This document shows positions 1 through 57,154 of a stretch of DNA of 64,000 nucleotides, in pieces. The translations under genes were made by a program, and so were the position numbers. Numbering within the stretch: position 1 is the stretch's first letter; each line of letters starts with the position of its first letter. The notes below the pieces were generated by a model. That model was given only the letters and a program-made list of their open reading frames with translations, was not told where the DNA came from and searched no databases. The stretch is taken from contig NZ_CP083666.1 in assembly GCF_020097835.1 (NCBI RefSeq), positions 1,178,001 through 1,242,000 of the forward strand, given 5' to 3'. Source of the DNA: Haloprofundus halobius (GTDB lineage: Archaea; Halobacteriota; Halobacteria; Halobacteriales; Haloferacaceae).

Positions 1-1286
1 TCGAACCGATGCGTCGCCGTCCGAATCGACTTCTTCCCCGTCTCGAACGCGGCGAGCGTCTCCCTCGACACCTCGGCGGCCGCCTCCCGGTCGCGCTCGT
101 CCATAATCGCCGTCTCGGCGAACACGGCGTCGTGCTCGTTGCCCGAATCGACTCCGTTGTCCGCGTCGTCACCGAACAACGCCCGCCCGCTCGTCGCCTC
201 CGGGGCCTCGACGCCCGAGAGGTCGCACAGCGTGTCGAACAGGTCGACGAGCGAGACGAGGTCCGAGCGTCGCTCCCCGGCGGGAACCTCGGGGCCGCTC
301 ACGACGAGCGGGACGTGCAGCAGTTCGTCGTACAGGAAGTAGCCGTGGTACATCGTTCCGTGCTCGCCGAAACACTCGCCGTGGTCGGAGGTGAGCACGA
401 CGTGCGTCTGCTCGCGCCGCCCCGTCTCGTCGAGCCAGTCGAACAGCGCGCCGAGTCGGTCGTCCAGATAGCGGACGCAGGCGCGGTACCACGCTCGAAG
501 GACCGAGAGTTCCGCGTCGGTGAGATAGTCGCCGGTCTCGTACTGGCGCATCGCGATGCTCGTCGCCGACGCGCCGTCGGCCGCCGCGAACAGCCGTTCG
601 GGTCGCACGTCGTCGCGGTCGAGGCGCACCGTCGAGGGGAGAAACTCCTCCAGTAGTGGAAGCAGGGGTCGGTGGAGTTCGGGCGTCTCCTCGCGCATGT
701 ACGGCTTCGGCACCCGGTACGGCGCGTGGACCGTCGTGAGATTCGCCATCGCGAACCACGGCGCGTCGGCCTCGGCGACGAACCGGCGGAGTTTCTCCAG
801 TTTGATCTCGGTGTAGTAGTCGTTGCCGCGGGTGGCGATTCGGAACAGGTCACGGCGGACGAACCCGTCGGTGAGCAGTTGCCGGAGGTACGGCAGCGAC
901 GGTCGCTTGGCCATCTCCTCGTACACCTCGTAGTACTCGTCGAAGCCGCGGTCGAGACCGACCGGCGACCCCATCTTCGACGGCCCCGGAATCCCGATTG
1001 TGTCGTACCCCGCGTCGCGGAACCGCTCGGCCATCGTCGTCTCGTCGGCCGACAGCGTCGGCCACGCGCCGGCGAACCCCGTCTCGGAGGGGTAGCGCCC
1101 GGTGAACAGCGCGCCGTGCGACGGCGGCGTCCACGACCCGGCGGCGAACGCGTTCTCGAACGTCGTCCCCTCGGCGGCGAGGCGGTCGAGGTTCGGCGTC
1201 GGTGGTGCGTCGTCGTCGTAGCAGGAGAGCGCGTCGACGCGGAGGGTGTCGCAGACGACGAGGAGGACGTTAGGTGGAGGGCCCAT
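1..1286 (-). CDS. AlkP-superfamily (sulfatase-like) hydrolase, 3' end cut by window
   Basis: The reading frame starts at ATG 1284-1286 and runs off the left edge, leaving 428 codons. The start MGPPPNVLLVVCDTLR carries the first metal-binding Asp, and TSDHGECFGEHG in the second half supplies the second metal site, so the alkaline phosphatase/sulfatase fold is clear. At the nucleophile position it has WTPPSHGALFTG, so Thr replaces the Cys of CxPSR. Formylglycine sulfatase chemistry is therefore unlikely, and phosphatase or phosphotransferase chemistry with a Thr nucleophile is a better guess. No signal peptide or membrane segment is seen, so it should be cytosolic. It is divergent from the glycosyltransferase at 1404, and a TATA-like GATATTACC lies near 1305-1313. 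Substrate unknown; a glycan or lipid-linked sugar is inferred from neighbours. Confidence 0.85.
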   Translation of the reverse strand, partial: MGPPPNVLLVVCDTLRVDALSCYDDDAPPTPNLDRLAAEGTTFENAFAAGSWTPPSHGALFTGRYPSETGFAGAWPTLSADETTMAERFRDAGYDTIGIPGPSKMGSPVGLDRGFDEYYEVYEEMAKRPSLPYLRQLLTDGFVRRDLFRIATRGNDYYTEIKLEKLRRFVAEADAPWFAMANLTTVHAPYRVPKPYMREETPELHRPLLPLLEEFLPSTVRLDRDDVRPERLFAAADGASATSIAMRQYETGDYLTDAELSVLRAWYRACVRYLDDRLGALFDWLDETGRREQTHVVLTSDHGECFGEHGTMYHGYFLYDELLHVPLVVSGPEVPAGERRSDLVSLVDLFDTLCDLSGVEAPEATSGRALFGDDADNGVDSGNEHDAVFAETAIMDERDREAAAEVSRETLAAFETGKKSIRTATHRF

Positions 1287-1373
1287 GGCGGCCGTTTCGA
1301 TGGAACGGTAATATCGTTTGTGTGTCAGAACCCGCCGTCGACGGGGTGACGGCGTCAGACGGAGTCCAGCGGA

Positions 1374-1379
1374 TTTATA
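1374..1379 (+). promoter_or_regulatory. TATA element of the 1404 glycosyltransferase gene
   Basis: TTTATA lies 25-30 bases before the GTG at 1404, the spacing expected for a leaderless haloarchaeal transcript. It supports GTG 1404 as the start. Confidence 0.6.
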
Positions 1380-1403
1380 CGCCTCTCGCCCGCCGCTTCG
1401 CCC

Positions 1404-2438
1404 GTGAACCGACCGAGCGCGCGGGTCGCGATGCTGTATCAGGACCCCCATCCCGCACACCGCGGCTTCGCCGAGGCCGTCGACGCCGACCTCGTCGACT
1501 TCCAGCGACACTCGTTGGGCCCGCTCTCCGACAGCGTCGTCGGCGACGTGTACAACGGGCTTCGGTATCCCTCGTACGACGTGTATCTCGTCGAGGGCTC
1601 GCGACCGCTGTACGCCGCGCTCGCGCACCGCGCGGTCCGGCGCTCGAAACTCGTTTACCTCTGCGCGGACCACGGCCTCTACAGCCTCGGCCGCGCCGAC
1701 TTCGAGGGGAGTTCGGGGTTCAAATCGCTCGTCGGCCGCTTCGGGAGACCGGCCGTCAGGGAGATCGGGTCGCGCTTCGTCGACGGCGTCGTCGCCGTCT
1801 CGGCGTTCGCCGCCGACTTCACGCGCCCCGTCGTCGGCCCCGACACGCCCATCGAAGTCGCTCATCCCTTCATTCAACCGGACGTGTACGACGCGCTCGG
1901 CGGCGTCTCCCCCGCGCTGGACGCGAACGTCGCCGTCACCGTCGGTCGGCCGTGGCGCTACAAGGGTGTCGACATGCTCGTCGAGGCGTGGCCGACGGTC
2001 CGCGAGTCGTTCCCCGAGGCGGAACTGCACGTCGTCGGCGGCGGTCATCCAGGGTCCTATGCCGAGACGCCGGGCGTCGAGGTCCGCGGCTACGTCGAGA
2101 ATCTGGCCGACGCCTTCGCGCCCGCCTCGCTCTACGCCCAACCGTCGCGGATGGACACGTTCCCCGTCAGCGTGCTCGAAGCGATGCGTGCCGGCCTGCC
2201 GCCGCTCGTCACCGAGACGACGGGGACGCGCTCGGAGGCCGGCGCACTCTCTTCGGACCTCGTCGTCGACCCCTCCCCCGAGGCGCTCGCGGCGGGCGTC
2301 GTCGCCTACTTCGAACGCGACGGGGCCGAGCGGCGAGAACTCTCCTCGCGCGCCCGCGAGCGCGGCGCGACGTTCGACGCCGAGACCCGAAAGCGCGCGT
2401 TCGCCGAGGCGTTCGATACCGTTCTCGAAGCACTTTAA
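1404..2438 (+). CDS. Glycosyltransferase, GT4-like (GT-B fold)
   Basis: This 344-residue protein (GTG start) looks like a retaining GT-B glycosyltransferase. The C-terminal half has the usual features: VTVGRPWRYKGVDMLVEAW around residue 175, ELHVVGGG around 210, and YAQPSRMDTFPVSVLEAMRAGLPPLVT around 245, with the family-4 acidic residue in VLEAM. It likely transfers a nucleotide-activated sugar to a lipid-linked or protein glycan on the cytosolic face. It is followed after 24 bases by a phosphodiesterase-like AlkP protein and then a sulfatase-like gene, so the three may be co-transcribed. Donor and acceptor cannot be read from sequence. Confidence 0.85.
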   Translation: MNRPSARVAMLYQDPHPAHRGFAEAVDADLVDFQRHSLGPLSDSVVGDVYNGLRYPSYDVYLVEGSRPLYAALAHRAVRRSKLVYLCADHGLYSLGRADFEGSSGFKSLVGRFGRPAVREIGSRFVDGVVAVSAFAADFTRPVVGPDTPIEVAHPFIQPDVYDALGGVSPALDANVAVTVGRPWRYKGVDMLVEAWPTVRESFPEAELHVVGGGHPGSYAETPGVEVRGYVENLADAFAPASLYAQPSRMDTFPVSVLEAMRAGLPPLVTETTGTRSEAGALSSDLVVDPSPEALAAGVVAYFERDGAERRELSSRARERGATFDAETRKRAFAEAFDTVLEAL

Positions 2439-2462
2439 CGCGGGTGCGTCGATAGCCCGGAC

Positions 2463-4007
2463 ATGACCGTCTACGTCGTCGGACTCGACGGGGCCGACTG
2501 GTCGCTGCTCCGCGACGGTATCGACGCGGGCGACCTCCCGGGACTGGCCCGCATCGCCGACGAGGGCGTCACCGGGAATCTGGAGAGCACGCTCCCGCCC
2601 ATCACCTTCCCCGCCTGGAAATGCTACTCGACCGGGAAGACGCCCGGCAAACTCGGTGTATACGAGTGGTTCGGCTTCGACCGTGAGTCGCGGTCGATCA
2701 CGACGAACGACTCCTCGGACTTCCGCTCGCGGGAGTACTGGGACGTACTGGCCGACCGAGGGTTCACTCCAGCGGTCGTCAACATGCCGACGACGCACCC
2801 GCCGAACACCGACGACGGCGTGCTGACCGTCGCCGGGAGCCCCGCCTCCGAGCACGGCGAGTTCACGAAACCGGCGTCGCTCAAGGCCGAACTACTGGAC
2901 GCGGTGCCGAACTACCGAACGAAACCCGACCTCGTGCTCGACGAGGCGACGCCCGAGGAACTCGTCTCGGAGGCGACGACGCTCGCCGACCAGCGCTTCG
3001 ACGCCGCTGAGTGGTTCGCCGACGAGAAGGGCTGCGACCTCGTCCACCTCACCGTCTTCGTCACCGACACGGTCCAGCACCGACTCTGGGACCAGCCGGA
3101 GAAGATTCGGGAGCTGTACGAACGCATCGACCGCCGCATCGCGGCACTGCTGGACCGCGAGGACACGGAGGCGGTGGTTTTGATGAGCGATCACGGGTTC
3201 ACCGAGATAGACGAGACGTTCCTCGTCAACGAGTGGCTCGCCGACCGCGGCGACCTCACCGTCGGCGACGCGGGCGGCCGCGAGGTACTCGCCTCCGTCG
3301 GCGTCACCCGCGAGCGACTCAAGCGCCTCGTCGACCGCCTCGGCCTCGTCAACCTCGCGCAGGGGCTGCTCCCGGAGTCGCTGCAGCGCTTCTTCCCGAG
3401 CGAGAGCGGCCGCGTCGCAATCCAGGACGCACCTATCGACTGGACGGAGACGAAAGCGATCTCGCTCGGCCGCGGCCCCATCTACCTCAACGACGCCGCC
3501 TTCGAGAGCGAAGCGGCGAAGCGAGCCTATCGGACGTCGCTGTCGGAGGCGCTCTCGTCGCTGGAGACGCCCGACGGCGACCCCGTCGCGTCGGCGGTCC
3601 ACAAGCCGGACGACCTCTATTCGGGCGACCTCTACCGCGCGCCGGACCTCGTCGTCGAGTACGCGACGGGCGTTGACGCGCCCGAGGCCGTCGGCGGCCG
3701 CGTCTTCGGCGAGCGGACCGAGTGGCTGGCGACGCACCGCAGGCAGGGCGTCTTCGGTGCGTGGGGCGAGGAGTTCAGTTCCGGTCGGTTCGACTGCAGC
3801 CTCTACGACCTCGCGCCCACCATCCTCCACTGGTTCGGTGCGCCGGTTCCCCGGGACGTCGACGGCGACGTCCAGCGGGCGATCCTCATCGGCGAACCCC
3901 AACAGCGGAGTGTCGAGGAGGGACCGGAGACGGCGACGACCGGCGGCGGGGCGACGGCGGGCGACGAGGTACAGGAGACGCTGCGCGACTTGGGGTACAT
4001 GGACTGA
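2463..4007 (+). CDS. Type I phosphodiesterase/nucleotide pyrophosphatase-like AlkP-superfamily protein
   Basis: This 514-residue protein begins MTVYVVGLDGADWSLL, giving the metal-binding Asp, and has PPITFPAWKCYSTGKTPG around residues 45-60. That is the Thr-nucleophile motif of the nucleotide pyrophosphatase/phosphodiesterase branch. AVVLMSDHGFTEID near residue 240 supplies the second metal site. It probably hydrolyses or transfers a phosphoester or phosphodiester, such as a sugar nucleotide or lipid-phosphosugar. No signal peptide is seen. The C terminus ends VQETLRDLGYMD, a tail shared with three other AlkP proteins in this locus. It lies 24 bases after the glycosyltransferase and is probably in the same operon. 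Confidence 0.85.
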   Translation: MTVYVVGLDGADWSLLRDGIDAGDLPGLARIADEGVTGNLESTLPPITFPAWKCYSTGKTPGKLGVYEWFGFDRESRSITTNDSSDFRSREYWDVLADRGFTPAVVNMPTTHPPNTDDGVLTVAGSPASEHGEFTKPASLKAELLDAVPNYRTKPDLVLDEATPEELVSEATTLADQRFDAAEWFADEKGCDLVHLTVFVTDTVQHRLWDQPEKIRELYERIDRRIAALLDREDTEAVVLMSDHGFTEIDETFLVNEWLADRGDLTVGDAGGREVLASVGVTRERLKRLVDRLGLVNLAQGLLPESLQRFFPSESGRVAIQDAPIDWTETKAISLGRGPIYLNDAAFESEAAKRAYRTSLSEALSSLETPDGDPVASAVHKPDDLYSGDLYRAPDLVVEYATGVDAPEAVGGRVFGERTEWLATHRRQGVFGAWGEEFSSGRFDCSLYDLAPTILHWFGAPVPRDVDGDVQRAILIGEPQQRSVEEGPETATTGGGATAGDEVQETLRDLGYMD

Positions 4008-4103: not shown

Positions 4104-5471
4104 ATGTCCGACCGCCCGAACATCCTCCTCGTCTCCTGGGACAGCGTCCGCGCCGACCACCTCTCCACGCACGGCTACGAGCGCGAGACCGCCCCCTTTC
4201 TGTCGGGCGTCGCCGACGACGGCCTCGTCTTCGAGGACGCCCAGGTGCCGGGCGTCGGCACCATCACGAGTTTCTCCGGCGCGTTCACCGGCGCGCACGC
4301 CGACGCGACACAGCAGTCCATCGAACCCGCAGACTGGAAGGCGGCCAACGCCGACCGCCGCCTGCTCTCGGAGGCGCTCTCGGACGCGGGCTACCACACC
4401 GGCGCGGTCCACTCGAACGCCCTCATGAGCCGATTCTACGGCTGGGACCGCGGCTGGGACGTGTACAAGGACAACGTCGTCACCGAGTCCGGCGGCGACT
4501 CCGACTCCGCGAAGTGGTGGAATCAGGTGAAGAAAGAGCGCCTCTTGCCGACGCTCCGACGCATGGGCGTCGCCGGCGCGGTCATCCATGGCCGGAACAT
4601 CGCGCTGAAGACGCCGTCGTACGTCGAGTGGGAGCGCATGTGGGACGACGTCGAGCAGTTCGTCCGCGACGCGCCCGAACCGTGGTTCCTGTGGGTGCTG
4701 CTCGTCGACACCCACCACCCGTGGTGCGCGCCGCCCGACTACCGCGAGTGGGAGCAACCGGGCTTCCGCGGCGCGCACGCGTGGAACTACGTCATGCGCC
4801 GCTACCCCGAGTGGACCGGCGACCGCCGCCCCGCCATCGTCAACGCCTACGACAACGAGATTCGCCACGCCGACGGGTTCCTCCGAAAGTTAGACGGACT
4901 GCTGGAGGAGATGGAAAACGACGACGCGGCGCTCGTCGTCCACAGCGACCACGGCGACGAACTCGGCGAGCACGGCGAGTACGGCCACTCCTCCCAGCGG
5001 ATGTACGACACGCTCACCCGCGTCCCGCTGGTGATGCGCAACGTCGGCGAGACGGGCCGCGTCGACGGTCCGCACACGCTGCTCGACCTCGGAAGTACGG
5101 TTCTGGATATCGCCGGGAGCGACGAGCGCCTCGCCGACCGACCGTCGCTGCTCGGCGACGAACGCGAAAAGCGAGAGTGGGTCGTCGTCGAGAACCTCGC
5201 AGGCGAGGGCGACGCCCGCGCAGCGGCCGTCGGCGACGAGTGGAAGGTACTTCACCACCCCGACACCGGGTGGCACGCCTACTATCGCCCGGACGACCCG
5301 CTGGAGCGCGAGGACCGCTGGGGCGGCCACCCCGAGGAACTCGAAGCCGTACTTCGGGCGCACCTCGTCGACAGAGAAGGCGTCACCGTCACCGGAAAGA
5401 GGGGCGACGACGGCGACGACGGGATGAGCGACGTGCAGGAACGGCTGACGAACCTCGGCTACATCGACTGA
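4104..5471 (+). CDS. Sulfatase-like AlkP-superfamily hydrolase
   Basis: This 455-residue protein has the superfamily metal sites NILLVSWDSVRADHL at the N terminus and VHSDHGDELGEHGEYGH near residue 280. The nucleophile segment reads VGTITSFSGAFTG, with Thr where sulfatases have the formylglycine Cys. It should therefore not be assumed to cleave sulfate esters. It has no signal peptide. A TATA-like AAAATTAAAAC near 4073-4083 gives it its own promoter. The C terminus ends VQERLTNLGYID. The gene ends at the left boundary of the low-GC TrkH segment and may once have been continuous with the 8.1-10.4 kb homologues. Confidence 0.85.
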   Translation: MSDRPNILLVSWDSVRADHLSTHGYERETAPFLSGVADDGLVFEDAQVPGVGTITSFSGAFTGAHADATQQSIEPADWKAANADRRLLSEALSDAGYHTGAVHSNALMSRFYGWDRGWDVYKDNVVTESGGDSDSAKWWNQVKKERLLPTLRRMGVAGAVIHGRNIALKTPSYVEWERMWDDVEQFVRDAPEPWFLWVLLVDTHHPWCAPPDYREWEQPGFRGAHAWNYVMRRYPEWTGDRRPAIVNAYDNEIRHADGFLRKLDGLLEEMENDDAALVVHSDHGDELGEHGEYGHSSQRMYDTLTRVPLVMRNVGETGRVDGPHTLLDLGSTVLDIAGSDERLADRPSLLGDEREKREWVVVENLAGEGDARAAAVGDEWKVLHHPDTGWHAYYRPDDPLEREDRWGGHPEELEAVLRAHLVDREGVTVTGKRGDDGDDGMSDVQERLTNLGYID

Positions 5472-5474
5472 AAC

Positions 5475-5540
5475 GGCTCTGTCGAAACCCTCAGAAGCTG
5501 ACAAAATTCCTCTGCTGCATACAGAGGGTGTATGCAGCAG
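5475..5540. repeat. IS-end/MITE-like sequence, left boundary of the TrkH segment
   Basis: It begins GGCTCTGTCGAAACCCTC (5475-5492) and continues to a perfect 12-base inverted repeat, CTGCTGCATACA at 5512-5523 and its complement at 5529-5540, with a 5-base loop. Related sequences occur inverted at 7984-8042, at 57100-57154, and (hairpin part only) at 56389-56425. No transposase gene is near. The hairpin could also terminate transcription of the upstream gene. Confidence 0.6.
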
Positions 5541-5580
5541 ACGAAGGATGTTCTGAGAGCAGTACGCCTACTAATGGCAG

Positions 5581-7128
5581 TTACTGCCGCCAAAACGTCG
5601 GTGTAAGGATGACCAGTACCGAGAGTACTTCCAAGCGGCCAATCCACATTAGAAAGACCATGTAGAGTTTTGCGGCATCCGAAAACGGCAGGAAGCTGTT
5701 CATTGGGCCAACAACACCGAAGCCCGGGCCAATGTTCCCCAGCGTGGCAATGGCGACGCTCATCGCCTCAAGCCCAGATAACGACACGCCAGATGTTCGT
5801 AAGCTGTCGAGATACAGAACCACCGTCGAGAGGACAAATATCGTCAAAAAGATCATTATGAACACGAGTACATCTCGAATTGTCTCCTCGTCAACGACTT
5901 CCTGGTCAAGTCGTAGTGGTTTAATGGCCTCAGGATGGACGGACGTGAACAGCGTCCGGAAGACTGCCTTCTTGACGAGAACCCACCTGACAATCTTGAT
6001 CGAACCGGCAGCCGATCCCGCGGATCCGCCTAAGAAATACGCAAACAACAGTATTGTCTGCGCGGAGGCATCCCAGGTGTTGAAATCCATACTCGCGTAT
6101 CCGGTCGTCGTCACAATGGCAATCACCTGAAAGAGCCCCTGCCGGAGCGAATTTTCGAGGTTTCCGGGAATGATGTCAAGGGTCGCGGGTGGTTCGGCGA
6201 GTCCAACGCCGAGAAAGAGCACTGCCGAGATAAGGATTCCAAAGCCGAGGATGGCAAGTAGGTACGTACGGAACTCTGTGTTGTTGGTTAACCGGCGAGG
6301 CTTTCCCTGAAAGACGTACCAGAACAGGGCAAAGTTCGTCCCTGCGACGACCATGAACGGCATCACTGCCCACTGGACGGCAGGCGTGAACGCCTCCACA
6401 CTCCGTGCCTCCGGGGAGAATCCACCGGTAGGCAGTGTCGTGAGTGCGTGCGCAACCGCGTTGTAGAGGGTCATGTTCGGCGCCAATCCACCTAGATGCA
6501 ACCCGTAATAGACGACAATTGCGAGAACGGTGAATCCGATGTAAATGCCCCATAGCCCCCGCGCAGTATGCTGAATACGCGGTGTCAGCTTCTCCAGCGA
6601 AATTCCTGGTGCTTCCTGATTCATGATCTGAGCACCCCCAACTGATAGCTCTGGCAGGATTGCGACCATTAACACGAGAATGCCCATCCCACCGAGCCAC
6701 TGGGTGAGCTGGCGCCACATCAGCATCGCGTAGCCATGGCGCTCAACCGAGATCTCCCCGAGAACAGTAGCACCGGTCGTCGTAAATCCACTCATGCTCT
6801 CGAACAGAGCGTTGACAGGGTTCGCAATAGTGCCCGTTCCAGCGACGAGGTACGGAACCATCCCCACCAACGGCACAACCAGCCACGCAAGACTTACTAA
6901 GAGGAACGCTTCCCGGTGTCTCAGCTCGCCATCGTTTCGAACTCGCTCTAAGAGGGAACCACCGCCAACCATGAGCACACTAGTGGTGATGAATGGAATC
7001 GGATTTTCGCCGTAATAGAGCGCCAGAACAAGCGGGAACAGCGGCGTAATGCCGATGTATTTGAGAACAGTCCCGACAAGGGCCACGCTTACCCTATAAT
7101 CGACATAGACGCTCGGTGTGCGGGCCAT
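5581..7128 (-). CDS. trkH: TrkH-family potassium uptake protein
   Basis: This 515-residue polytopic membrane protein imports K+ as the pore subunit of a Trk/Ktr system. The chain starts in a hydrophobic stretch near residue 10 and has the repeated pore-loop pattern of the family, for example SGFTTTGATVL near residue 110, TLPTGGFSPEA near 225, TTTGYASMDFN near 345 and LGNIGPGFG near 465. Its length is normal for the family. GC content and codon choice are visibly lower than in flanking genes, suggesting transfer. No TrkA gene is adjacent; the cytosolic partner may be elsewhere or replaced by the universal stress protein nearby. Start is ATG 7128. Confidence 0.9.
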   Translation of the reverse strand: MARTPSVYVDYRVSVALVGTVLKYIGITPLFPLVLALYYGENPIPFITTSVLMVGGGSLLERVRNDGELRHREAFLLVSLAWLVVPLVGMVPYLVAGTGTIANPVNALFESMSGFTTTGATVLGEISVERHGYAMLMWRQLTQWLGGMGILVLMVAILPELSVGGAQIMNQEAPGISLEKLTPRIQHTARGLWGIYIGFTVLAIVVYYGLHLGGLAPNMTLYNAVAHALTTLPTGGFSPEARSVEAFTPAVQWAVMPFMVVAGTNFALFWYVFQGKPRRLTNNTEFRTYLLAILGFGILISAVLFLGVGLAEPPATLDIIPGNLENSLRQGLFQVIAIVTTTGYASMDFNTWDASAQTILLFAYFLGGSAGSAAGSIKIVRWVLVKKAVFRTLFTSVHPEAIKPLRLDQEVVDEETIRDVLVFIMIFLTIFVLSTVVLYLDSLRTSGVSLSGLEAMSVAIATLGNIGPGFGVVGPMNSFLPFSDAAKLYMVFLMWIGRLEVLSVLVILTPTFWRQ

Positions 7129-7216
7129 TGAACAGCTATAGTAGTCAAACGATGAACGGATGGACGTTTCGGTTCGGTAGCTCTACGGAGAAACGATTCG
7201 TCGTCTCATCGTCAGG

Positions 7217-7336
7217 TCACTCTTGTTCTTGGATTCTGTCCCATTCTTCCACACAGCTCTCACAGAGAAATCCGGTGAATCCATCCACATTATATCTCTG
7301 AACAGTCGTATCGTCTCCACACCGCTCACATTTCAT
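7217..7336 (-). CDS. 39-residue two-CxxC zinc-finger microprotein
   Basis: A short ORF from ATG 7334-7336 to TGA 7217-7219 encodes a 39-residue protein with CERC at residues 3-6 and CESC at 25-28. This is a compact zinc-binding knuckle pair and little else. Small zinc-finger proteins of this kind are a recognised haloarchaeal class. It sits in the intergenic region between trkH and the Usp gene on the same strand and belongs to the low-GC segment. Cys pairing and size argue for a real gene, but expression cannot be judged. Function unknown; protein or RNA binding is possible. Confidence 0.6.
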   Translation of the reverse strand: MKCERCGDDTTVQRYNVDGFTGFLCESCVEEWDRIQEQE

Positions 7337-7371
7337 AGTTAGTCCTGATAATTAGCTTCGGTAATCTCTGT

Positions 7372-7827
7372 TCACGCATCATGGGCGAAAACGATTCTCT
7401 CTTGCTCCTTCGGGAGTGCAATCACCGGGATTTTGCTCTGTTTGAGTAGCTCAGCCGTGACATCTCCAGTGAGGAATTTAATCCATTTGTTCCCGGCTCG
7501 TGGGACGAACGCAATTGCGGTCGCTTTTTCTTCTTCAGCGGCTATTCGAATCGTTGCTCCAACGTTACGCCCATATAATGTACGGAATTCAAGCGTTGGT
7601 CCGTTATCGGGGAAGACATCCAAAAAGGATTCATATGCTTCCTCAGCGAAACCTTGACGCTGTTCAACGGATGCCTTGTCGGGTACGCCTTCACCTTTCT
7701 CAATGACGTGAACAACAATGACGTGTGAATCCTCATGAGCAAAGTGGTAGATGATTCGGGCAGTATTCGCTGCGTCGTCTGGACCAGCGATCGGTACAAA
7801 CACTTTGTCGAATAAATCGGAAGCCAT
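7372..7827 (-). CDS. UspA-family universal stress protein
   Basis: This 151-residue single Usp domain starts MASDLFDKVFVPIAGPDD at ATG 7827, chosen because GGAGAG precedes it. An in-frame ATG 42 bases upstream is less likely. VIVVHVIEKG and the C-terminal GDVTAELLKQSKIPVIALP follow the family pattern. The nucleotide-binding G-x2-G-x9-G-(S/T) loop is only partly present (GNKWIKFLTGDVT), so ATP binding is uncertain. Usp proteins often sit beside ion transporters as regulators; co-location with trkH on the low-GC segment suggests a role in K+ uptake control. This is inference. Confidence 0.85.
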   Translation of the reverse strand: MASDLFDKVFVPIAGPDDAANTARIIYHFAHEDSHVIVVHVIEKGEGVPDKASVEQRQGFAEEAYESFLDVFPDNGPTLEFRTLYGRNVGATIRIAAEEEKATAIAFVPRAGNKWIKFLTGDVTAELLKQSKIPVIALPKEQERIVFAHDA

Positions 7828-7983
7828 TATCTCTCCTTTTGGCTCTCCGACCAAATTTCCTCCGGTCATATTAACGGATGCGTAATAACGGGCGTTTTGA
7901 TTTCGGCTCCAACAATCTCCCTAAACGCCAGGTGAATTGCCAATCGGTAGGACACGAATTTGAGAAACCTCTGTGCGAGATAT

Positions 7984-8042
7984 GCGCCCTGTATTCAGCA
8001 CGGCTTCGAAAACCCATCACCAATCGAGGGTTTCAACAAGGG
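7984..8042. repeat. IS-end/MITE-like sequence, right boundary of the TrkH segment
   Basis: On the minus strand this reads TTGTTGAAACCCTC (8039-8026), then about 30 bases, then CTGAATACAGGGCGC (7998-7984). It matches the left copy at 5475 in order and spacing (about 55 bases) but in inverted orientation, so the GAAACCCTC ends point outward on both sides. The segment 5475-8042 therefore has the layout of a mobile unit with diverged inverted termini and no transposase. Confidence 0.55.
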
Positions 8043-8062
8043 TACTGAAACAGTTTAGACAC

Positions 8063-56343: not shown

Positions 56344-56388
56344 GGTTTTGACTTCATCGAATCTATATTCTATTGATAGTTTTACGAA

Positions 56389-56425
56389 GCGCTGCTGAAT
56401 AGAGAGGATGCATTCAGCGCACGAC
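56389..56425. repeat. IS-end/MITE-like hairpin copy
   Basis: GCTGCTGAATAGAGAGGATG followed by CATTCAGCGC resembles the hairpin portion of the copy at 5512-5540. GCTGAAT and ATTCAGC pair (7 bases). It lies left of the SnoaL-like gene. Confidence 0.45.
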
Positions 56426-56552
56426 GTGTACCATCTCCGCGCGACCAAACTCCCACGGAGTTAGCCCTCGACAGGACAACTAGTTCCCTCGGTAGCTGTC
56501 ATTTCGGTCGTGCCAGCTCGTTTTTCCCCCTCGGGAGGGTATTTTTCGAGTG

Positions 56553-57005
56553 ATGACTGTGGCTATTTTAGACGAGAACAAAGAAACTGTCCGCCGGTAC
56601 TACAAAGAGGTCGTGGAAGCCGGCCATACGGAACTGCTCACCGAACTGATCGCCGAGGACGTCGTCAACCACAATCCGTTATCCGACGAGTCGCTCACAG
56701 CCGAGGAGGCGCGGGGATTCGAGGGGTTCCGCCGCCACGTTGAGGTATTTCAGGAGGCCTTCCCCGACAGAACGTTCAGTATCGAGGACCTGATCGCCGA
56801 GGGAGATAGCGTTTCGGCCCGGCTCAGGTTCGAAGGAACGCACGAAGGACGGTTCGCTGGAATCGAACCCACCGGGAACCGGATATCGGGGTCCTCAATG
56901 GCGTTTTACCGCATCGAAGACGGGAAGATCGTCGAACGGTGGTACGAGACTGACAATTTGGAGTTGTTCAAGCAACTGGACGCCATCGAACGACACGCCC
57001 AGTAA
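56553..57005 (+). CDS. SnoaL-like polyketide-cyclase-fold protein (ester cyclase)
   Basis: This is a 150-residue protein of the NTF2-like fold. NKETVRRYYKEVVEAGHTELLTELIAEDVVNHNP opens the family pattern and GFEGFRRHVEVFQEAFPD with FRIEDGKIVERW-type ending (YRIEDGKIVERWYETDN) closes it. It is probably a small cyclase, isomerase or dehydratase, or a binding protein; no substrate can be named. ATG 56553 chosen; GTG 56550 is one codon earlier. GC is slightly lower than neighbours and it is flanked by IS-end-like sequences. Confidence 0.8.
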   Translation: MTVAILDENKETVRRYYKEVVEAGHTELLTELIAEDVVNHNPLSDESLTAEEARGFEGFRRHVEVFQEAFPDRTFSIEDLIAEGDSVSARLRFEGTHEGRFAGIEPTGNRISGSSMAFYRIEDGKIVERWYETDNLELFKQLDAIERHAQ

Positions 57006-57099
57006 CGTCTCACCTCCTTTCTCCTCTATGAGAGTTATAACCAACCGCTCAGTAAGCCCGATTAGCACGGTCTTGGTCTCGACGGACCGCACTCGGTAA

Positions 57100-57154
57100 G
57101 CGCCCTGTATTCACCACGCCATCTCTGTCACGGGTTGCGGACTTCGACAGAGCC
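57100..57154. repeat. IS-end/MITE-like copy right of the SnoaL-like gene
   Basis: On the minus strand it begins GGCTCTGTCGAA (57154-57143) and ends GTGAATACAGGGCGC (57114-57100). The order and 55-base span equal the copies at 5475 and 7984. Orientation matches the 7984-8042 copy. Confidence 0.55.

Follow-up and report, generated by a model that had tools for sequence, protein, structure and literature searches.

A low-GC potassium-uptake unit of Haloprofundus halobius as a probable member of a transposable gene-cassette system in haloarchaea

Introduction

Gene exchange is known to be extensive among haloarchaea, and the ways in which single genes move between them are only partly understood. 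The described systems closest to the element reported here are mobile integrons, in which gene cassettes are arrayed and a tyrosine recombinase gene lies by the sites; mobile insertion cassettes, in which a passenger gene lies between the terminal repeats of an insertion sequence (IS) family; and the palindrome-associated transposable elements (PATEs) of haloarchaea. Here we describe a low-GC segment that carries the potassium-uptake gene trkH in Haloprofundus halobius, within a stretch of 64,000 nucleotides (the window; positions 1178001–1242000 of contig C1 in the 3.95-Mb genome G000, which has five contigs and is called the own genome below), and we compare it with related units in this and other genomes. 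The segment is probably a unit of one cassette within a gene-cassette system of haloarchaea that has two layers of mobility.

Integrons are known from metagenome-assembled genomes (MAGs) of archaea, and the main text of the paper on them is without words beginning with halobacteri-, haloarch- or halophil- (PMC9668308). In a study on introns in integrons, IntegronFinder was run on 47 halophilic archaeal genomes, and its passages on such loci place them in a halophilic bacterium and in metagenomes, with no statement on attC clusters in any haloarchaeon. We found no description of a system like the present one in the open-access literature.

Results

An earlier note, made from the sequence alone, had described positions 5475–8042 of the window as what looks like a 2.57-kb non-autonomous mobile unit with potassium-uptake cargo, inverted ends, low GC content and no transposase. 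The left boundary holds, and the right one lies one base further, at 8043, because the octamer ACTGAAAC that directly precedes the segment recurs directly after this base, identical at 8/8 positions, as a target-site duplication (TSD; Table 1). The GC content is indeed lower inside, 0.52 against 0.68 in the flanks. In all four other genomes available for the genus (G010, G070, G036 and G055) the flanking gene pair is uninterrupted, with nothing but small gaps between the left and right flanks, and the joined flanks are 83 to 90% identical. The insert is missing from these relatives and the ends recur in the own genome as pairs that enclose other genes, so that neither a gene order kept in relatives without the ends nor single unrelated copies of the ends was found; the duplication, the empty site and the recurring end pairs bear out the mobile unit. 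No transposase was noticed when the inner open reading frames (ORFs) of at least 50 aa were inspected by eye, Pfam having been run on TrkH, a microprotein and the universal stress protein (Usp) only.

Inverted ends were found at both borders, each built from a terminal repeat and a TGCTGAATACAG-like core at a fixed offset from the tip, +38 at the left end (LE) or +43 at the right end (RE). The hairpin of the palindromic LE core has z values of -3.6 and -5.0 on the two strands relative to shuffled sequences, and the RE core on the reverse strand begins with TGCTGAATACAGGGCGC, from 8000 downwards. The inner CTG-A/C-ATACAG motif pointed out earlier is present and, beyond what was then seen, marks the cassette boundaries in arrays.

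Such arrays became apparent with a model built from right-end sequences (R1, one row of which had a base omitted), which gave at least 67 matches at E ≤ 1 in the own genome, where 150 of 655 candidates were scored; many of these matches were core-only and clustered on plasmid C3. On this plasmid, cassettes are joined by fused sites, which point in one direction at 63–70 kb and in the opposite direction near 76, 77 and 88 kb. A fused site is ~83 bp long with two cores ~39 nt apart, and in 11 aligned fused sites both terminal repeats are missing and the two-core spacing is regular. A second model built from these 11 sites (R2; 38 candidates scored per genome) found a match at E ≤ 1e-4 in at least 78 of 119 genomes of the family.

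The 92 sites and 90 cassettes described next come from arrays chosen for their clusters in G055 and G036, which are not a random sample. All sites but one shared the orientation of their own array (91/92, matches at E ≤ 0.5; 33/33, 26/27, 10/10, 8/8, 8/8 and 6/6 for the individual arrays), and their consensus was CCTCTgTATct.GCA ... tT.cTGAC ... TGCTGAATA.A..GCGC, with capitals at 90%; TT.CTGAC stood at the centre of 42 of the 71 full sites. The 90 delimited cassettes (limits of delimitation, 150–5000 bp) had a median length of 684.5 bp (291 to 3981) and a median GC content of 0.51. Their ORFs pointed both ways, 39 versus 42 among the 81 cassettes that had an ORF of 70 aa or more, and nine more cassettes were without one. 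Six proteins of the own array submitted to Pfam gave no matches. The longest array, in G055, is bordered at its start by a complete RE, the terminal repeat of which is exact, and at its other end by a complete LE with one mismatch.

Cassettes also recur as units. The window cassette is 86.8% identical over 2531 bp to the first of three cassettes of another own-genome unit, E2 (L022), which has two internal sites. This match begins within the terminal repeat of the RE and runs as far as the LE core; outward of this core lies the terminal repeat in the window unit and a fused site in E2, and the LE of the window unit resembles the far end of E2 (75% over 60 bp). Six further homologous pairs were found among the 90 cassettes, across different genomes or arrays, and in five of them the 700 bp inspected outside the sites showed no matching neighbours. 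In the cleanest pair, between G036 and G055, the identity is 95.9% over 418 of 426 bp and ends a few bases from both cores, and the RE has the terminal repeat in G036 and a fused site in G055. In other pairs the match enters the site or falls short of it, so the sharpness of the boundary varies.

End searches of the own genome revealed further ends, several of them as inverted pairs around other genes (units L028, L032, L033, L034 and L035 in Table 1). Across six units the left and right 8-mers agree at 36 of 48 positions, which is reached by 1 of 720 permutations; L034, which scored 2/8 or 4/8 at the boundaries tried, and positions 56360–57154 of the window were excluded, their boundaries being uncertain. 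The latter is a second, decayed unit with an RE-type end with GGCTCTGTCGAA at 57154, a degenerate other end, a SnoaL-like protein as cargo and no convincing TSD. E2 carries a 9-bp direct repeat, ATTTATTAA, and locus L070 combines one internal site with an 8/8 TSD; we count both as pointing to transposition of several cassettes together.

A search of public genomes with the exact 18-mer terminal repeat GGCTCTGTTGAAACCCTC gave at least 120 stretches, mostly from haloarchaea, with some Methanomicrobia and few others. Among 179 candidate inverted end pairs from the 120 loci listed, a lower bound, 42 had a direct repeat of at least 7/8, perfect in 35, against 0 of 895 shifted control comparisons. 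Both cores were present in 14 of these 42 units, and 13 of the 14 had one LE (+38) and one RE (+43). The cargo of these core-bearing units is unrelated; across the TSD-verified units it includes Usp, glyoxalase, alpha/beta hydrolase, HNH, GYD and a formate/nitrite transporter. The 42 include two copies, both counted, of one 701-bp unit on one Halobaculum plasmid record (L111:918-1618 and L123:6431-7131), which share the same duplication, AAGAACTC, and probably reflect a larger duplication and not two insertions.

Among the 42 are also miniature elements of 124–125 bp, bounded by the same terminal repeat, that are without cores. We considered them as remnants of autonomous elements and rejected this, the repeat being common to them and the cores missing, and we regard them as separate elements. 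In Methanomicrobia, the 18-bp repeat bounds small elements with 8-bp duplications (L072, L104, L117 and L181; L088, L116 and L139), and single exact 18-mer matches occur in MAGs of Bathyarchaeota, Elusimicrobia and Dehalococcoidia.

In other haloarchaea, GGCTCTGTTGAAACCCTC bounds IS5-family transposase genes. Five such genes of one type (L122, L078, L096, L136 and L142) begin exactly 52 bp inside an exact repeat; their proteins are 88–100% identical, L078 being identical to L122 and L142 compared over 129 aa only. Both terminal repeats were located within 900 bp for L122 and L136, and the L122 protein belongs to the IS5 family by NCBIfam NF033579 (217 bits). Because IS5-family elements elsewhere carry the identical 18-bp repeat, transposition of the present units in trans by such a transposase is likely. 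The own genome has an IS5-family transposase gene at C3:58156-58857 (L217:8157-8858), with an apparent truncation of its start, immediately inward of an RE-like core on the plasmid that carries the arrays.

The IS6/IS26 family, suggested by GGC.CTGTTG and the 8-bp duplications, was tried and rejected. The IS240/IS6 DDE domain had 0 matches in the own genome, and matches to the end model never bracketed the transposase in 30 IS6 loci (from 38 positive of 60 relative genomes), of which L049 was the only one inspected base by base. At L049:1170-1960, an IS6-type element with ends GGCACTGTC... is inserted at the tip of a cassette end.

A scan of the five genus genomes for the Phage_integrase domain revealed one recombinase near sites in the own genome (C2:80535-81240) and in G036. 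The gene, coding for 234 aa, is placed between two such cores, and the alignment of the two loci is confined to the stretch between and including the LE and RE cores. The protein matches PF00589 and, with its C-terminal part only, XerA/C/D models, and its best solved relatives are XerA/XerD-type recombinases, likewise in the C-terminal part. Homologues at E ≤ 1e-10 occurred in 47 of the 119 family genomes, most of them less than 60% identical, and on 44 plasmid records, 12 of which were fetched. The test for cores beside the gene drew on 22 of the 30 homologue loci from the family-genome search, and the other eight were inspected separately.

At least one core with up to three mismatches lies beside the gene at 19/19 loci of the clade (at least 72% identity), at the clade-typical distance in 18 of them, and at 0/15 loci of distant homologues (34–51% identity). 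In a closer sub-clade of nine loci, the best cores, some with four or five mismatches, are at -45 to -47 and +31 to +37. In the second sub-clade (ten loci), cores with up to three mismatches are at -61 to -67 and +35 to +38, with the exception of +58 in L284. A 70% identical fragment (L297) has a core at 38 bp, and L295 and five loci at 37–46% identity have no cores. The clade retains the motif R, K, HxxR, W and Y, and the copies on the Salinirubellus and Halorubrum plasmids have the catalytic His. Its eight plasmid records come from Haloarculaceae, Haloferacaceae and Natrialbaceae, and in four of these loci (L336, L338, L341 and L343) fused sites covering most of the model lie near the gene. 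Among viral contigs, the patterns used found no relatives of the recombinase; one contig carried the core pattern.

Two other recombinase genes stand close to sites. In the own genome, a 329-aa XerA-like recombinase (L030:6346-7335) lies ~1.2 kb from a lone RE core (L030:5107-5156), and beside the G036 array a tyrosine recombinase is seemingly split into two ORFs of 141 and 347 aa (L254:2614-4118).

The cargo of the window unit is listed in Table 1. The microprotein matched the treble-clef model PF23550 weakly, below the cut-off, and translation of usp more likely starts at 7827 than at the 7869 end of its reading frame. The segment had been said to lie between homologous AlkP genes; its left neighbour and the second gene to its right are indeed of the Sulfatase/AlkP family, and the long ORF directly to its right has no Pfam match.

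Table 1. Features of the window unit (window positions) and cargo of other units in the own genome.
Feature	Position	Strand	Evidence or remark
Left TSD copy, ACTGAAAC	5467..5474	.	Uninterrupted site in 4/4 other genus genomes
LE terminal inverted repeat, GGCTCTGTCGAAACCCTC	5475..5492	+	1 mismatch to the IS5-family repeat GGCTCTGTTGAAACCCTC
LE core, 11+5+11 palindrome, TGCTGCATACA-GAGGG-TGTATGCAGCA	5513..5539	+	Offset +38 from tip
trkH, potassium-uptake membrane protein, 515 aa	5581..7128	-	PF02386, E 8.1e-61
39-aa cysteine-rich microprotein, two CxxC pairs	7217..7336	-	Translated from sequence
usp, universal stress protein	7372..7869	-	PF00582, E 3.8e-10
RE core, TGCTGAATACAGGGCGCATATCTCGCACA	7972..8000	-	Offset +43 from tip
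RE terminal inverted repeat, ACCCTTGTTGAAACCCTC	8026..8043	- (8043-8026)	4 mismatches to the IS5-family repeat GGCTCTGTTGAAACCCTC
Right TSD copy, ACTGAAAC	8044..8051	.	8/8 identical to left copy
Unit L028: HTH_10 regulator and DoxX			Pfam
Unit L032: DUF7344, TrmB and PIN proteins			Pfam
Unit L033: two ORFs			
Unit L034: CBS protein			Pfam
Unit L035: LURP-one-like protein			Pfam, below cut-off

Discussion

Our best reading, and the simplest account of all the findings, is that these are transposable, integron-like cassette units. In the outer layer, the 18-bp repeats would let an IS5-family cut-and-paste transposase acting in trans move the whole unit, with an 8-bp duplication of the target. 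In the inner layer, joined cassettes have no terminal repeats between them, and the two cores that lie just inside such repeats form one fused site of ~83 bp, giving arrays of one orientation; at these sites the small tyrosine recombinase of 234 aa would excise and insert cassettes. The outer repeat accounts for the duplication and the empty site, and the inner cores account for the arrays, the exchange of single cassettes and the recombinase nearby. The shared repeat suggests that the IS5-family transposase moves these units, the recombinase is, by the position of its gene, a candidate to act on the cores, and strand exchange presumably takes place at the sites. We do not call the system an integron because the recombinase falls outside the IntI profile, the sites are without the attC consensus and the cassette genes run both ways.

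Several observations weigh against this account. On the side of transposition, the IS5-like transposase of the own genome is 44% identical to that of L122, seemingly truncated and without a good terminal repeat nearby. The perfect 8/8 duplication of the window unit is accompanied by 6/8 in four other own-genome units, and the repeat of E2 is 9 bp long and agrees at 4/8 in the strict 8-bp register. The G055 array is without a clean TSD and has two further RE-type terminal repeats inside, so that it could consist of several adjacent units. Of the homologous cassette pairs, the sixth, between two arrays of G036, matches over the next 454 bp too and may be a duplicated block.

On the side of the recombinase, cores with up to three mismatches stand on both sides of the gene at only 8 of the 19 clade loci, and random windows of the same loci reach equal scores in 0.5 to 14.5% of draws; the single cores at the weaker loci L283 and L284 may therefore be due to chance. 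The stop-side core is RE-like in part of the second sub-clade, and L287, a fragment of 88% identity that lies at the end of a contig, shows a single weak core at an unusual position. G010, G055 and G070 have sites or arrays and no recombinase homologue at E ≤ 1e-10. The own-genome copy (L026:2536-3240) has Tyr for the conserved His of HxxR and, judging from this residue, could be weakly active or inactive. Of four fused sites, three do not fold clearly better than shuffles, and in G055 a degenerate Y1 (IS200-type) gene with an internal stop (L333:1350-1821) lies 83–149 bp from a fused-site-like core pair.

The strongest alternative, which we regard as unlikely, is a plain non-autonomous IS5-type transposon with passengers, that is, a mobile insertion cassette, whose cores are inner binding sites of the transposase and whose arrays arose by nested transposition and decay. 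For the window unit by itself the terminal repeat, the TSD and the empty site suffice, and IS5-family elements have the same terminal repeat. Nested insertion would also leave what is seen in three ends on plasmid C3, with 3 to 6 mismatches in the terminal repeat, and in the two RE-type repeats inside the G055 array. However, nested transposition ought to leave complete terminal repeats and duplications, whereas the 11 aligned fused sites have no terminal repeats, their spacing is regular and TT.CTGAC is central in 42 of the 71 full sites. The co-orientation of 91 of 92 sites and the tyrosine-recombinase genes adjoining cores also argue against it, and the cores are unnecessary for transposition because the 124–125-bp elements with the same terminal repeat have none.

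Single-strand transposition of the HUH (IS200/IS605) type, resembling that of the PATEs of Haloquadratum, with the end of one cassette as the preferred target of the next, is less probable still. The cores are near-terminal palindromes, the left core of the window unit being a strong hairpin, and passages of the PATE description report near-terminal palindromes and no target duplication in haloarchaeal elements (PMC3119063). Insertion into a specific target would likewise yield arrays of one orientation, and one of eight Y1 loci, the L333 gene with the stop, adjoins a core pair. On the other hand, none of the eight Y1 loci of the five genus genomes had cores with up to three mismatches flanking the domain on both sides at distances of up to 300 bp, the array-rich G036 has no Y1 match at all, and solo units bear terminal repeats and TSDs, which are missing in PATEs.

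A divergent true integron, in the form of an attC cluster without a neighbouring integrase, is largely refuted and very improbable. The outline is alike, with cassettes, paired inverted sites and a tyrosine recombinase, and integrons do occur in archaea as noted above. The attC consensus is RYYYAAC...GTTRRRY. This pair was present in 0 of 71 full sites (shuffle mean 0.08). The folding of four fused sites (eight strands) gave z values from +0.35 to -2.30; the site at C3:69602 folds better than nearly all shuffles and the other three are not clearly better folded. The recombinase had no match to the integron-integrase model at E ≤ 0.001, and the ORFs run both ways, 39 to 42. The remaining idea, an ordinary host operon of deviating composition with a chance likeness of its ends, could appeal to the fact that Usp and TrkH genes often stand together in haloarchaea, and is refuted by the TSD, the empty site in all four other genus genomes and the second copy elsewhere in the own genome.

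The transposable cassette system, if true, would be a concrete vehicle for the travel of single genes and would account for the islands in which single genes of low GC content occur. The integron principle would then have been reached a second time, by means of other sites and another recombinase. The broader proposal, that haloarchaea have a gene-capture platform independent of integrons, in which transposable arrays and a dedicated tyrosine recombinase on two-core sites serve the exchange of stress, transport and regulatory genes in at least three families, seems to us evenly balanced between right and wrong.

Compared with mobile integrons, the present system likewise has cassettes roughly one gene in size, every one with its recombination site, in co-oriented arrays, a tyrosine recombinase gene by the sites, and transposon ends around the whole unit. 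It differs in that its sites have no attC consensus and mostly no clear single-strand fold, its recombinase is a short haloarchaeal phage-integrase type and not IntI by profile, its cassette genes run in both directions, and no clade recombinase was found by the long G055 arrays inspected.

The miniature inverted-repeat transposable elements with the IS5-family repeat share the 18-bp repeat and the 8-bp duplication; those of 124–125 bp are without cores or room for cargo. PATEs, which like the window unit have near-terminal palindromes and no transposase, are described as having neither a terminal inverted repeat nor a target duplication (PMC3119063), whereas the window unit has both.

The window unit alone fits the definition of a mobile insertion cassette (PMC3913671). 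With such elements it shares IS-family terminal repeats, a target duplication, a passenger gene and the want of a transposase. To this plan the system described here adds internal cores and arrays of several cassettes joined by fused sites.

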